Virus record (IMG/VR): IMGVR_UViG_3300046781_000054
Coordinates: 1-64,000 of that record
Source: a virus
DNA length: 64,000 bases
Reading direction: 5' to 3' (one strand)
Of this stretch, positions 2,715-49,482 are shown in pieces. Numbering within the stretch: the stretch's first letter is position 1; each line of letters opens with the position of its first letter. The translations under genes and the position numbers were made by a program. The notes beneath the pieces were generated by a model, which was given only the letters and a program-made list of their open reading frames with translations, was not told where the DNA came from and did not search any database.

Positions 2715-3022
2715 GACTGGCCTCCCCCGGTGATGACGGAGAAGCGGGCCTTGGATGCGACGTGGGAGGCCGCGGCGCGCGCGTCGGCCAGAGCGTTCGA
2801 GACGCCGGCATCCACGCTGTCCTGCGGCTGTGCTTCCAGGAGGGCGACGAGTCGGGTGATGCCCGCCCAGGTGAGCGAACCGTGGAACGCCTCCGTGCCG
2901 TCCGGGGTGGCGAGGGTGACGGTGAGGTAGGGGGCGGCGTTGGGGAGCGGGTTGAGGTCGCTCATGGCGCGGCCGAGGGCGATAGCGGCCTGGAGACTGC
3001 TCGTGATGCGCTGCTCAGCCAT
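2711..3022 (-). CDS. Hypothetical protein, 103 aa
   Basis: The N-terminal third is helical, followed by a beta-rich stretch (PYLTVTLATPDGTEAFHGSL) and an Ala-rich helix. TAATG joins it to the gene upstream and ATGA to the gene downstream. The alternation of helix and TVTLATPDG-type strands resembles its neighbour at 2409-2714 (IKLYGPTGTPVG), so the pair may be distant paralogues; this is an impression from pattern only. Confidence 0.75.
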   Translation of the reverse strand: MAEQRITSSLQAAIALGRAMSDLNPLPNAAPYLTVTLATPDGTEAFHGSLTWAGITRLVALLEAQPQDSVDAGVSNALADARAAASHVASKARFSVITGGGQS

Positions 3023-3357
3023 TAGATCGTCACCGCCTTCAGGACGCGGTCGGAGCCGGTCCAGACGGCGCAGGTGTGGCGGCGCTCGCCGGTGAAGATG
3101 TCGAGGATCTCGACCGCGAACTGGGCCGCGCGCCGCTTCAGGATGCGGCGGGCCTCGGACGGGTCGTGGATGACGGTGAGGACGCGGTAGGTGCCGGCTG
3201 CGTTGTCGTAGACGGTGCCCGGGGCCCGCGGGCCGAGGTCGGCGGCGACCGAACGGCGCAGCGCCTCATCGGCCTGGGTCGTGGCATTCGCGCCAACCGG
3301 GTGGACGTTGTCCATCGGTCGCGGTGCCGCGGAGACGGCTGTCGTGAGATCCTTCAT
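3022..3357 (-). CDS. Hypothetical protein, first gene of the left operon, 111 aa
   Basis: The start MKDLTTAVSAAPRPMD is chosen because AGGAGG lies nine bases upstream; an upstream in-frame reading would cross the divergent promoter. Residues 50-110 form an alpha/beta segment (YRVLTVIHDPSEARRILKRR) and a short hydrophilic tail with one Cys. The gene is directly downstream of the promoter and operator shared with the GntR gene, so it heads the operon GntR probably represses. Function unknown. Confidence 0.75.
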   Translation of the reverse strand: MKDLTTAVSAAPRPMDNVHPVGANATTQADEALRRSVAADLGPRAPGTVYDNAAGTYRVLTVIHDPSEARRILKRRAAQFAVEILDIFTGERRHTCAVWTGSDRVLKAVTI

Positions 3358-3547: not shown

Positions 3548-4351
3548 ATGCCGATCCCAAACGGCCCGACGACCTACCGGGAGCTCGCTGAGCTGCTGAG
3601 AGGTCAGATCGAGGGGGGTGAATACCCGCCTGGGGCACCCCTACCGTCCATTCCGGAACTGATGGATCAGTGGAAGCTCGCGCGACAGACCGTGCGGTCC
3701 GCCATCAATCAGCTCGCATCGGAAGGGCTTGTCAGAACGGCTCCCCGCAGGGGGACCGTCGTCCAGGCCCGTACGGAGCGACGCCGCATCGCACGCAGCC
3801 AGGTAGTCACCAGGAGCAGTGCGGGCATGTACGTCTTCCCGGCCGCCGGATACCCGGACGAGGTGTGGCAGACCCACGGGACGCCGCACCGCTCGCAAGA
3901 GCCGGCGCCTGACCTTGTGGCCGAGATCTTCGGTGTCGAGGCGGGCAGCCCGGTTCTGCGTCGTCGTCGGGTGATGTCGCCCGAGGAAGAGCCGCCGTTC
4001 CAGATCGTCGATACCTGGCTGAGCCCTCAGGCGGTCGAGGACGCCCCTCGCATCGCGGAGAAGAGCACGGGTCCCGGTGGGTACCTTGACCGTCTGGAAG
4101 AGGCCGGCCATGGGCCGATCTCGTGGACGGAGACCACCAGGACGCGCATGCCTTCTGAGGAGGAGGCCCGGCTCCTGGAGATCTCCACGGCGCTGCCGGT
4201 GATGGAGTTGTCCCTGGTGGGGACGTCTGGTCGCACTGGAGACGCACTTGAGGTGACGATGCGCGTTATCCCGGGTGACCGTGTGGAGCTCGTGGCGGCC
4301 CTGGTGCGTGATGAGTCTGCGGCTTGGCCGCGAGGGGAGGGGGTGCGGTAG
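3548..4351 (+). CDS. GntR/HutC-family transcriptional repressor
   Basis: 267 residues. The N-terminal winged helix (about 8-75: TYRELAELLRGQIEGGEYPP then LARQTVRSAINQLASEGLV) is a typical GntR domain, followed by a UTRA-like ligand domain (about 85-255). AGGAGG lies five bases before the ATG. Streptomyces integrative elements and plasmids use relatives of this type (KorSA, TraR) to control transfer and maintenance genes. The inverted repeat just upstream suggests it represses itself and the left operon. The ligand is unknown. Confidence 0.9.
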   Translation: MPIPNGPTTYRELAELLRGQIEGGEYPPGAPLPSIPELMDQWKLARQTVRSAINQLASEGLVRTAPRRGTVVQARTERRRIARSQVVTRSSAGMYVFPAAGYPDEVWQTHGTPHRSQEPAPDLVAEIFGVEAGSPVLRRRRVMSPEEEPPFQIVDTWLSPQAVEDAPRIAEKSTGPGGYLDRLEEAGHGPISWTETTRTRMPSEEEARLLEISTALPVMELSLVGTSGRTGDALEVTMRVIPGDRVELVAALVRDESAAWPRGEGVR

Positions 4352-4803: not shown

Positions 4804-4964
4804 TGGTCACCGGGCATGAGATCGCAGCTCTCATCACCCCCGGAAACGCGGAACGGCCGGCATACGGGGCGCAGCACCCCTGCCGACCGGTCCAAGCACA
4901 ACCAGCGGATTGCAGGCCGCTGGCCATCGAACAACAGATGCTTCGTAAGGCAGGTCGTTCATGA
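4803..4964 (+). CDS. Small coupled ORF, 53 aa
   Basis: The ATG overlaps the upstream TAA (TAATG at 4801-4805), and the TGA overlaps the next start (ATGA at 4961-4964), so translation would be coupled at both ends. It starts MVTGHEIAALITPGN; its two Cys are far apart. The perfect fit into the gap, with no other explanation for these 160 bases, is the main evidence that it is real. Function unknown. Confidence 0.6.
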   Translation: MVTGHEIAALITPGNAERPAYGAQHPCRPVQAQPADCRPLAIEQQMLRKAGRS

Positions 4965-5617
4965 CCACAGTAGCGCCTCAACAAAAGTCGACAAGAGGCA
5001 CCCACCGGTTGCCGCTCCGAGCATCGCGCCAGGACGGCCCTCGGGATTGGTTTCGCGCGCTGGCCCGTGACGGTTCCGTAGACCCGACGGACAAGGCGGT
5101 GTACGCGGCCATCGCGTCCTTCGTCGACCCCAAGACTGGGATGTCGCCGTCCGTCACTGCCGATGTCGGCAGCACTGTGCTGCCGGAGAACATCCCCACG
5201 CGCAAGCGGCTTGCTTCGTGCATCGGGAAGTCCATCTTCACGGTAGACCGCTCCATTAAGCGCCTAGAGCAGCGTGGCCTCATCCTGGTCCACCGGCACA
5301 CGCACCCCGAGAACACGAAAGCGCACGCCCCCTCCCAATACGAACTGCTGCCGTACCGGCCACAGCCGACCCCGATCCCGAAGCAGACCGCCACAGTCGC
5401 CCGGAAGCGCCTCCCCATCAGCGCGACCAAGCGAACGCGCATCATGGCCCGAGACGGTCACAGGTGCCAGAAGTGCGGCGCCACCGAAGACCTGACCATC
5501 GACCACATCCAGCACTGGTCTCGCGGCGGTACGAACGCCGACGACAACCTCCGAGTCCTCTGCCGCTCCTGTAACAGCCAACGCAGCGACGGCTCTCTTG
5601 AAGGGCTCGACTCGTGA
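4961..5617 (+). CDS. Winged-helix protein fused to an HNH endonuclease
   Basis: 218 residues. Residues about 35-115 look like a winged helix of replication-initiator type (DPTDKAVYAAIASFVDPKTG, then SIFTVDRSIKRLEQRGLILV). Residues about 158-205 form an HNH nuclease: CQKCGA, TIDHIQHWSRGGTN, NLRVLCRSCN, with Cys pairs for a structural zinc and DH as catalytic pair. It overlaps the next gene by four bases and is probably coupled to the replication initiator at 5614. The DNA-binding domain may direct nicking or cutting to a specific site, for example the nearby origin; that is inference. Confidence 0.85.
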   Translation: MTTVAPQQKSTRGTHRLPLRASRQDGPRDWFRALARDGSVDPTDKAVYAAIASFVDPKTGMSPSVTADVGSTVLPENIPTRKRLASCIGKSIFTVDRSIKRLEQRGLILVHRHTHPENTKAHAPSQYELLPYRPQPTPIPKQTATVARKRLPISATKRTRIMARDGHRCQKCGATEDLTIDHIQHWSRGGTNADDNLRVLCRSCNSQRSDGSLEGLDS

Positions 5618-7086
5618 ACGAATCGACAAGCAGCGGCGCTAGCGTCTCCCGTATCCGCGGTATCGCGAAGCTGCTCGAACAGGTCCGCCAGCTCGACTCC
5701 ACCGACGAGCCGTTCGAAGTCGAAGCCGAGGACGAGCTGCCGTTCGTGCAGCTCGGGCACTGGGTTGCGCTGTCGGGCGTGAGCGCCGGCGCCTTGGCGC
5801 TCTACTGGATGCTCGCCCTGCACCTGAACCGAACCCGTGGTGACCGGTACGTCTGGCCGACCACGGACATCCTCGCCCACATGCTCGGCTACTCCCGGGG
5901 CGACAAGATCAAGCGGTTCGTGGATGAGCTGGTTGACATCGGTGCGATCAGAGTTATCTCGGTCCCTGACCTGCGAGGGCCGCAGAAGCGAAACGTCTAT
6001 CGGCTTCGGCGTACTCCGCCCGAGGGATACACCGGTCTGGTCTCCCTCAAGGAGTTCTACGCCCAGCTGGATGAGGCGTACGAGCAGGAAACCGCAGGTG
6101 ATCCCGTGTCCCCCCAAACGGGGGGACACGTCCCCCCTCATTCGGGGGGTGACGTAGCACCCGAACCCGGGGGGCACGTACCCCCCCGGGCGGGGGCGGT
6201 AACTACAAGAACCTCTAACTACATGAACGAGAAGGACGCGCCTTCGGCGCGTAGCGCCGCTGACGGCCGTAGGCCTTCTACAGGTAGTAGAGGCAAAAAG
6301 GTCGAAAGCGGCGTTGCCGCGTCCAGCAAAACCACCCCTCCCCCCTCCACCACGACAGCCCCCACCAAGGCACAGACCAGCAGCAAGGCGAAGCACAGCC
6401 GCCAGCAGCTGGAGACCGCCCGGCAGGTGGCCGCCGCCTACCCCGAGCAGCTCGGCGTCCGCCTCGTGCCGGTCCTCACCGATGCGATCCTTGCTGCGCT
6501 GGCCGGCGACGTGCCCGGGGCGGAGCGGACCGTGGCCCAGCTCGCCGCCCGTATCCAGCAGCGGTGGAACCACCACGGCTACGCAACCGCCTTCTACCGG
6601 GGCGAGATCGAGCGTCCGATCGGTGCGGCGGTGGAGATGGTGCGGCCACTGAAAGCCACGGCCCGCTACGGCTGCGCGAATCCGCGCTGTGAGGTCGGTG
6701 TGGACGTCGACACGGGCGCGGACTGCCCCGTGTGCCCGCAGCGTCTGGCGGACCGTCAGCGGGCCCGTCAGCAGGGCGTGGAGGCGGTTCCCGGGCCACG
6801 CTCCGGAGAGTCCGGGCCGCTGAAGTGGGTGTGTGGGTCGCCGACGTGTCGGATGGCCGTCAAGGGGCCGCGCACCGAGTCGGGTCTGTGCCCGGGCTGC
6901 ATCGCCGAACTCGATCGGGCCGGCGCCCCCATCACCCAGGCGCCCCCGCCTGTACCGCAGCCGGTCGTCAGTGGGCCGGAGGACACCGGGGTGGACGAGG
7001 AGACCGCCCGGCTACGCGCGCGCTACGCCCGCCAGTACGGCAGCCCCGAGCAGGTTGAGGCGTACTGCACCGGCGCCCCGTTCTGA
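5614..7086 (+). CDS. Replication-initiator-like protein with internal iterons
   Basis: 490 residues. N-terminal winged helix (about 45-130: GALALYWMLALHLNRTRGD, DILAHMLGYSRGDKIKRFVD), a low-complexity linker (165-265) with repeated GGHVPP/GGDVAP units, a helical segment (265-340), then two zinc ribbons (CANPRCEVGVDVDTGADCPVC and CGSPTCRMA with CPGC). The linker DNA contains three G6-N6-C6 type repeats and an AT-rich direct repeat, resembling an origin inside the initiator gene as in lambda O. It overlaps the HNH gene upstream (ATGA) and shares its wHTH style. Direct replication function is inferred from this layout. Confidence 0.7.
   Translation: MNESTSSGASVSRIRGIAKLLEQVRQLDSTDEPFEVEAEDELPFVQLGHWVALSGVSAGALALYWMLALHLNRTRGDRYVWPTTDILAHMLGYSRGDKIKRFVDELVDIGAIRVISVPDLRGPQKRNVYRLRRTPPEGYTGLVSLKEFYAQLDEAYEQETAGDPVSPQTGGHVPPHSGGDVAPEPGGHVPPRAGAVTTRTSNYMNEKDAPSARSAADGRRPSTGSRGKKVESGVAASSKTTPPPSTTTAPTKAQTSSKAKHSRQQLETARQVAAAYPEQLGVRLVPVLTDAILAALAGDVPGAERTVAQLAARIQQRWNHHGYATAFYRGEIERPIGAAVEMVRPLKATARYGCANPRCEVGVDVDTGADCPVCPQRLADRQRARQQGVEAVPGPRSGESGPLKWVCGSPTCRMAVKGPRTESGLCPGCIAELDRAGAPITQAPPPVPQPVVSGPEDTGVDEETARLRARYARQYGSPEQVEAYCTGAPF
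6106..6223. other. Candidate replication origin: iterons and AT-rich repeats
   Basis: Three 18-bp units start at 6120 (GGGGGGACACGTCCCCCC), 6144 (degenerate, GGGGGGTGACGT core) and 6169 (GGGGGGCACGTACCCCCC), 24-25 bp apart. Position 6106-6129 is also a perfect 10-bp-arm palindrome. Just downstream TAACTACA occurs twice (6200-6207 and 6216-6223) in the least GC-rich stretch here. Iterons plus an unwinding element inside an initiator gene suggest a theta-type origin. Confidence 0.6.
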
Positions 7087-48390: not shown

Positions 48391-49482
48391 TCAGACGAAC
48401 TTGTCGACGAGGTGGTCGTACACCGCGACCGCGGCCGCCGCGTGCGCAGCCTTGCGGGCCCCAGAGTCGCGCCGGCGGATGTATCGCAGCGTGGTCTCGA
48501 TCGCGGCATGATCGGCGTACTCCTGAATCTCCTCCACGGGCACCTTCGCGTCGTGCATGTGGGTCAGCTTGGAGGCGCGCAGCACGTGCGGAGTCAGGTC
48601 GCGGCCGGACAGGACGAGGGCCTGCTTGCCGAGGCGGGTGAGCAGGTAGTCGACATCGTGGCGGGACATCGCCTTGTCGGCGTCGTTGAGGAGGAGCGGG
48701 CCTTCGGTGCGGCCGACGGTGGCGACGTCGATGAGCTGGGCGAGCCGATCCGGGAGCGTCCAGACGCGGCCCTTGCCGCCCTTCCTGCGCAGGTCCAACA
48801 GGCGTACGCCGTCATAGTCCTTGAGCTGGCCGAGGGTGGCGGCGCAGCACTCGGAGACGCGGCCGGCGAGCGTGTAGATGAGGACCGGGACGACGGCTTC
48901 CCGCGCGGTGGCGGCGGCTTCGATGACGCGTTGCAGTTCGGGGACTTCAAGGATGGGTGTGGCGGTGGTTTCGTCGTGGGGGTCGACCTTGGGCCGGTCG
49001 TGCTTGGTGACCGGGGAGACGACGGTGTGGTCCTTGGTCTTCCACTTGGCGTACTCGGACAGTGCGGTGAGGACGGACAGGCGGCGGTTGATGGTGCGCG
49101 GCGCTTTACCTTTGGCTTTCTGGACTTTGGTCCAGGTCTCGATGATGCCGGGGGTGATGGCGCCGACGAAGAAGCGGTCGTGGCCGCCCAACTCCCGTGC
49201 GACGCCTGCCCAGAGGCGGATGTCGTCGGCGTAGGCCTGCTTGCTGGTGGTGGCGGGGACGGCTTCGGAGCCGAGCCATGAGGTGATGAGGAGGAAGGTG
49301 TCGCGGTCGCAGAGTTCAGCGAGGAGTTCGAGGCGCCAGCGGCGTTCGCCGAGGCGTCGGGTGCGGGGGTTGCGGGGTGCAACGGTGCCGAGGATGTCGC
49401 GGAGGTAGTAGAAGGCTTCCTCGGCGGCGCCAGGCTGGGCAAGTTCGGCGCGGGGTCTCGCGGAGAGGTCGTGCTCGGTCAC
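48391..49482 (-). CDS. int: Tyrosine recombinase (integrase)
   Basis: 363 residues with the full set of catalytic elements: Arg in AGRVSECCAA, Lys in RRKGGKGR, HVLRASKLTH (His and Arg), a second His in YADHAAIETTLRY and the nucleophilic Tyr there. N-terminal core-binding helices at 85-165. It starts on a GTG overlapping the upstream gene. Candidate phage integrase, although with parAB it may instead act as a dimer resolvase. An attachment site cannot be fixed from this window. Confidence 0.88.
   Translation of the reverse strand: MTEHDLSARPRAELAQPGAAEEAFYYLRDILGTVAPRNPRTRRLGERRWRLELLAELCDRDTFLLITSWLGSEAVPATTSKQAYADDIRLWAGVARELGGHDRFFVGAITPGIIETWTKVQKAKGKAPRTINRRLSVLTALSEYAKWKTKDHTVVSPVTKHDRPKVDPHDETTATPILEVPELQRVIEAAATAREAVVPVLIYTLAGRVSECCAATLGQLKDYDGVRLLDLRRKGGKGRVWTLPDRLAQLIDVATVGRTEGPLLLNDADKAMSRHDVDYLLTRLGKQALVLSGRDLTPHVLRASKLTHMHDAKVPVEEIQEYADHAAIETTLRYIRRRDSGARKAAHAAAAVAVYDHLVDKFV

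Follow-up and report, generated by a model that had tools for sequence, protein, structure and literature searches.

The 92,058-bp virus record IMGVR_UViG_3300046781_000054 begins with the stretch of DNA analysed here (64,000 nucleotides, hereafter the window), which carries tail-fibre, minor-tail, endolysin, methyltransferase and integrase genes. The replication initiator gene (rep, Table 1) has relatives in 66 plasmid records, many of which are circular and measure 85-93 kb, as well as in the Streptomyces phage ZL12 (the plasmid-phage pZL12 of 90.4 kb), and the gene order GntR regulator, small gene, (HNH), rep is common to the window and to pZL12-like elements. Because of these relatives and of the common neighbourhood, the source is most likely a pZL12-like Streptomyces phage-plasmid. 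The GntR/UTRA regulator is encoded upstream of the rep region (3548-4348, plus strand) and is syntenic in ZL12, pSAM1, pCQ3 and others. The integrase gene (48394-49482, minus strand; phrog_1 and phrog_216) resides on the same element as the plasmid-type initiator, so that autonomous replication is possibly not the only lifestyle of this element.

The initiator matches the replication initiation protein PHROG 270 (E 5e-6), and its homologues are those of ZL12 and of Streptomyces plasmids. In an AlphaFold model, built from a 19-row alignment and of moderate overall confidence (pLDDT 70, pTM 0.35), the N-terminal winged helix is followed by a linker, predicted to be disordered exactly across the stretch that codes for the putative origin, then by a helical domain (residues 263-343) and a cysteine-rich segment. 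The latter, in which C354, C359, C371 and C374 are invariant, probably binds zinc, and the C-terminal domain with these cysteines is homologous to that of the initiators of pFP1/pZL12-type replicons. Fold matches in the PDB include the DnaD N-domain and a plasmid Rep-DNA complex (best E 1e-3), and those among viral models include the lambda-O-N-domain and replisome-organiser proteins, while NCBIfam and PDB sequence searches returned nothing useful. The codons of the winged helix lie upstream of the putative origin and those of the flexible linker over it, which is the arrangement of lambda-O-type initiators. No lambda O-like family profile matches the whole protein, however; only PHROG 270 and 428 do so, via the N-domain and linker, and an O-like C-domain was not found in these searches. 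The initiator is therefore filed as working like lambda O, and not as a member of that family by homology.

Table 1. Features of the rep region (positions in the window)
Feature	Position	Strand	Remarks
HNH nuclease carrying the winged helix of a different type of initiator (fusion)	4961-5617	+	Overlaps rep start; neighbour, not part of the origin
Replication initiator gene (rep)	5614-7086	+	490 aa; GTG start overlaps HNH gene stop; PHROG 270, homologues, fold matches
Codons of predicted iteron-binding winged helix, residues 58-131	5785-6006	+	AlphaFold, pLDDT about 80-93
CGCAGGTGA box	6093-6101	+	Just upstream of iterons; 14/47 loci including all five non-coding origins; background 4.8%
Codons of disordered linker, residues 163-255	6100-6378	+	AlphaFold, pLDDT < 50; coincides with putative origin
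Iteron 1, CCCCCCAAACGGGGGG	6110-6125		Dyad
Iteron 2, CCCCCCTCATTCGGGGGG	6132-6149		Dyad
Iteron 3, CCCGAACCCGGGGGG	6160-6174		Imperfect dyad
Iteron 4, CCCCCCCGGGCGGGGG	6181-6196		Dyad
AT-rich stretch, probable DNA unwinding element, with TAACTACA direct repeats	6198-6235		AT peak
Hairpin A, GCGCC-TTC-GGCGC	6238-6250	-	GNA loop on bottom strand; arm shared with B; covariation; loop TNC in 30/32
Hairpin B, GGCGC-GTA-GCGCC	6246-6258	+	Covariation; loop GNA in 30/32
Hairpin C, GGCC-GTA-GGCC	6265-6275	+	Covariation; loop GNA in 30/32
GGTAGTAG, conserved linear motif	6283-6290	+	G and GTA-type columns (near-)invariant in alignment A1
Hairpin E, GCGGC-GTT-GCCGC	6308-6320	-	Relatives GCGGC-TNC-GCCGC; loop in the window deviates

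A repeat search of the window finds a 44-nt unit three times at 24-nt spacing (6105, 6129 and 6153), within the stretch encoding PQTGGHVPPHSGGDVAPEPGGHVPP between the winged helix and the C-terminal domain. A first-pass annotation had noted repeats in these linker codons, and both the repeat search and the predicted disorder bear this out. It had further described them as three G6-N6-C6 units, of which two are exact while the middle one reads GGGGGGTGACGTAGCACCC, and the conserved unit is another one: a C(3-7)-N(3-7)-G(4-7) dyad is present in four copies each in the window and in its relatives L065 and L002, which have the same N-domain, whereas the two relatives each retain a single instance of the G-N-C register, which was ruled out as the iteron unit. 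The dyads are spaced by about 24 bp in the window as well as in L065, where they read CCCCGAAACGGGGG, CCCCCGAAACGGGGGG, CCCCTCAAACGGGGGGG and CCCCAAACGGGGGG. Thus, tandem dyad iterons lie within the initiator gene, as in origins of the lambda-O type. The CGCAGGTSA box upstream of them was dismissed as a universal origin part, given its distribution among the loci (Table 1).

In principle, the DNA repeats could merely follow from peptide repeats that are selected as protein, since the linker is predicted to be disordered and such linkers are often repetitive. However, the dyads and the hairpins described below vanish upon synonymous recoding: none of 400 recodings of the same protein stretch matched the perfect-dyad content of the window (p = 0.0025, the minimum possible), and in the coding linkers of relatives the same test gave p < 0.05 for 27 of 41, whereas control stretches from these genes reached this in 8 of 160 cases. 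Proline codons in the repeats are all CCC or CCT and never CCG, which the gene prefers elsewhere (Fisher p = 0.013), and glycine GGC is avoided at p = 0.07. Furthermore, the linker peptides of relatives differ widely (FQDSGTA, GRKSDPA, GGGKPTAQ and GSAVQRTT), yet dyads persist in the DNA, with arrays of TTCCAGGATTCTGGAA in ZL12, GGGTCGGAAATCCGACCC in the pSAM1 group, and GGGACTCTCAGTCCC, GCCGCATGGATGCGGC, GGCGTCATGGGTGACGCC and GGTGACACAGATGTCACC in others. Loss of the repeats from relatives with an intact gene, which the annotation had named as counter-evidence, was looked for: the exact sequence changes, nearly all relatives keep a dyad array in place, and five carry it outside the gene.

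These five plasmids provide the strongest evidence, comparative in nature, for selection on the DNA rather than the peptide, because the same block occurs in them outside any gene. In pSLUN2 (L009), NBC_01310 (L018), pZL1 (L022) and NBC_00161 (L030) it lies between genes and has stops in every frame, as it does in pFP1 (39,360 bp), where the non-coding module is located about 0.94 kb past the rep stop (L078 5280-5380, E 1e-16). Overall, the non-coding blocks lie 0.7-3.9 kb downstream of rep and contain iterons of ~24-bp spacing, the AT-rich stretch and the hairpins in unchanged order, the order also of pFP1/pZL12-type replicons. Protein-level selection is thereby refuted as the main explanation and appears barely conceivable, whereas the proposal of the annotation that selection on the DNA gave rise to the GGHVPP/GGDVAP peptide repeats as a by-product gains support from both the recoding tests and the non-coding copies. 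The occurrence of one origin inside and outside its initiator gene makes constraints on coding and on DNA directly separable. The RepA of pFP1 is reported to bind its iterons, with rep plus iteron given as the replication locus (PMC3583192); the block is thereby anchored to a plasmid with a studied replication locus. A further candidate, L033, was set aside as a non-coding origin, as it resembles a decayed copy: at about 2850-3100 of this locus, from a 918-kb linear plasmid of S. atratus, the module is intact and the reading frame is broken, apparently a decayed intragenic origin.

The 30-nt windows with the highest AT content in the gene (63%) start at 6198-6207, directly after the last iteron, and 45 loci as well as the non-coding origins have an AT peak at the equivalent position. 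The two AT-rich direct repeats of the annotation are both present, with TAACTACAAGAAC at 6200 and TAACTACATGAAC at 6216; the second TAACTACA copy is kept in L065 but not in L002. It is the AT-richness at this place that is conserved and not the second 8-mer. The lambda origin lies in the middle of the O gene, where an AT-rich tract sits next to four iterons (PMC7466680), and an AT-rich tract likewise adjoins the iterons here and at the same position in relatives, so that the comparison lends support to the earlier proposal of a lambda-O-like arrangement inside the initiator gene. Alternatively, the iterons could be operators for autoregulation of rep, or an incompatibility or handcuffing site, with the true replication start elsewhere, and winged helices do often act as repressors. 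However, the array lies within or far downstream of the gene and not at a promoter, the AT-rich stretch and the module always come after it, and the pFP1 equivalent lies on a plasmid for which rep plus iteron has been described as the replication locus (PMC3583192), all of which makes an operator array improbable.

The repeats lie at 6106-6223, the extent originally given, but the most conserved part of the locus is found beyond it, at 6238-6320, in the form of a module of ~85 bp. This module consists of triloop mini-hairpins together with GGTAGTAG and is common to about 50 Streptomyces phage-plasmids and plasmids; the 92-kb record contains exactly one copy. Relatives were found by blastn with 6196-6380 and by nhmmer over the fetched loci, giving an alignment of 33 loci (A1), in which GGTAGTA is present beside hairpins A, B, C and E. 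In IMG/VR, about 17-18 of 38 loci with the exact pattern were confirmed by a covariance model, the rest being treated as chance. For hairpins B, C and E taken together, 97.5% of the cells in the alignment are paired, as compared to 30-55% when the partners are slid, and cells in which both partners have changed number 41, as compared to 11.5 in shuffles (0 of 500); with A in place of B, 96.6% are paired. The loop of hairpin E is mostly TNC across the loci. Since TNC reads GNA on the complementary strand, all hairpins offer a GNA-type triloop, B and C in the top strand, A and E in the bottom one. Triloops of the type d(C-GNA-G) are exceptionally stable in single-stranded DNA. Real loci contain 3.4 GNA/TNC triloop hairpins per 120 nt, synonymous recodings 0.25, and the test is individually significant in 39 of 40 coding loci. 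Five IMG/VR relatives (L047, L051, L059, L064 and L069) lack hairpins A and B but keep C, GGTAGTAG and E, which therefore form the core of the module. A role of GGTAGTAG as a hairpin arm, suggested by CTACTAC-AG-GTAGTAG in L002 and L021, was ruled out, because the left arm is not conserved.

A covarying hairpin can also be RNA, and the region might be the proposed origin and yet contain a module that acts as RNA, either in the rep transcript or in a short primer or regulatory transcript, thereby controlling rep expression or priming. Indeed, the stems covary as those of an RNA would, the RNA of 6230-6335 folds stably (z = -5.2), the orientation relative to rep is always the same, and hairpin B contains G-U type pairs. 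On the other hand, B and C have the GNA-type triloop on the top strand but A and E have it on the bottom one, so that a single transcript cannot use the two sets alike, and C-GNA-G is a stable loop of the DNA type. Moreover, an Rfam search with the module gave no match near the gathering score, and the module stays beside the AT-rich stretch even when located 0.7-3.9 kb from rep. On balance, action as RNA seems unlikely, though it has more in its favour than an operator array.

Among the loci, pairs with similar N-domains share the iteron sequence (at least five 8-mers) in 86% of cases, and in 84% when their C-domains differ, whereas pairs with the same C-domain and different N-domains share iteron 8-mers in 25%, the background being 10%. 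Thus, by sequence, N-domain and iteron type travel together while the C-domain is swapped, although linkage between adjacent N-domain and iterons could alone give this coupling, so that the statistic by itself is no proof of binding. In pZL1 and NBC_00161, however, with iterons outside rep, the N-domain is that of L031, L037 and L070, with iterons inside rep, and the iterons of all of these are of the GGTGAC...GTCACC type. From such pairings, initiator/iteron pairs can be predicted for dozens of Streptomyces phage-plasmids, as a source of compatible vectors. The module is situated exactly between the two exchanged halves, and domain swapping is frequent, which would fit a mere recombination block kept by gene conversion and not by origin function. 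Gene conversion keeps sequence, however, whereas here the stems vary by compensating changes that leave pairing and loops intact, and the module is also kept in non-coding origins without the flanking domains; we consider such a block, like the operator array, improbable.

The hairpin module accompanies the cysteine-rich C-domain family in all such loci fetched, and it was not found in Thermobifida phage P1312, Amycolatopsis FU40 and Arthrobacter Altadena, all three of which have the winged helix but other C-domains. Because the module tracks this C-domain and was not found in these three, the C-domain or a partner of it is the best candidate for a reader of the hairpins. Gene 55 of P1312 and the rep of the Amycolatopsis FU40 plasmid resemble the window in their homologous winged helix and intragenic repeats, and differ in the other C-terminal domain and in that no hairpin module was found. 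The repeats of P1312 (L016 2995-3088) consist of CCCCGGAAAAGCGGGG at 22-bp spacing, which resembles the iterons of the window, followed by GGTGGAACAATACGAA, and those of FU40 are located at L015 2947-3054.

We propose that the stretch 6093-6320 is, in all likelihood, the theta origin of a pZL12-like phage-plasmid, embedded in the codons for the disordered linker of its own initiator, and probably a lambda-O-like origin of the pFP1 type that is intragenic here. Comparison of the loci shows, at the level of sequence, selection on the DNA, the pairing of iteron and N-domain types, the AT-rich stretch, the conserved hairpins and the non-coding equivalents; replication from this stretch and binding of the iterons by the N-domain would be the activities behind these features. 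The winged helix, in the form of N-domain dimers, would load onto the four dyad iterons (6110-6196), and torsion from the bound array would melt the AT-rich stretch. The single strands to the right of it would then fold into C-GNA-G triloop mini-hairpins (A/B, C and E), which together with GGTAGTAG may constitute a structure-specific signal that marks the loading of helicase or primase, that is, a single-strand loading or priming signal. Reading of this signal would probably fall to the C-terminal domain, which is conserved and probably binds zinc, or to a host factor, and the peptide repeats would be a by-product. Against this reading, the GC skew does not switch at 6.2 kb in the direction that a bidirectional origin would give; as evidence on the direction of replication it was dropped as uninformative.

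As in phage lambda (O/ori-lambda) and the lambdoids, the putative origin is placed in the middle of the initiator gene with iterons and an AT-rich tract, and lambda-O-N-domain proteins are among the fold matches of the initiator. By contrast, the C-terminal domain has no recognisable relationship to that of lambda O, a conserved hairpin module follows the AT-rich stretch, some relatives have the origin outside the gene, and the N-domain/iteron cassette is swapped against the C-domain. Other parallels are pFP1 (RepA and iteron), with a homologous C-terminal domain and the same hairpin module behind 24-bp-spaced repeats, and pZL12, whose gene pZL12.82 contains intragenic TTCCAGGATTCTGGAA iterons as well as the module; iteron sequences and N-domains of both differ from those of the window, and the origin of pFP1 is non-coding. 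In the linear Streptomyces plasmid pSLA2, too, iterons lie inside an initiator gene, reportedly located within rep1 by Chang et al. in 1996; pSLA2 is not among the initiator matches. In the PLEs of Vibrio cholerae the initiator (RepA) N-domain, which binds DNA, and the origin iterons are likewise exchanged as a unit, although the PLE origin is located in a non-coding region (PMC8263062).

No description of the hairpin module was found in the literature searched, nor anything pertinent on GNA triloops in origins; relative to this literature, what is new is that a triloop-hairpin module is conserved and that one origin type occurs both in and out of the gene. More speculatively, and with somewhat less than even confidence, the module may represent a new class of origin element: C-GNA-G mini-hairpins on both strands and in fixed order, which would appear upon AT-rich melting and whose structure the zinc-binding C-domain, or else a loader of the host, would read. 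In that case the origin would be bipartite, with an exchangeable key (N-domain and iterons) and a shared lock (C-domain and hairpins), and exchange of the key could be driven by origin-directed nucleases such as the product of the neighbouring HNH gene. The family as a whole suggests that theta origins of GC-rich bacteria contain a hairpin signal that is conserved and defined by structure, and it ties the swapping of initiator modules to possible origin-targeting nucleases among competing phage-plasmids.

The winged helix of the HNH protein is 61% identical to that of initiator L059 and 55% to that of L034; its N-domain scores 288-312 against the initiators L059, L034 and L063, and 26, which is background, against the initiator of its own element. 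The matching genes of pCQ3 and NBC_01005 likewise have background similarity to their own initiators. Odn of phage ICP1 cuts rival origins via an initiator-like domain (PMC8263062), and the two have in common that a phage nuclease carries an initiator-type DNA-binding domain; they differ in that the nuclease domain of Odn is discussed beside GIY-YIG (PMC8263062), whereas that of the window is HNH, known from sequence. By this analogy, the HNH gene possibly encodes an origin-directed nuclease like Odn, a lead and not a finding. CCGCA-N3/4-TGCGG sites were found neither in the window nor in the examined stretches of two other HNH-bearing records, and with mismatches allowed there is no array in the window. 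The iterons of L034 are GGCCGCANNGATGCGGC, and the predicted target of the nuclease would be such iterons in rival phage-plasmids. Genes combining HNH and winged helix are also located at L021 1426-2043 (pCQ3) and L037 1200-1823.
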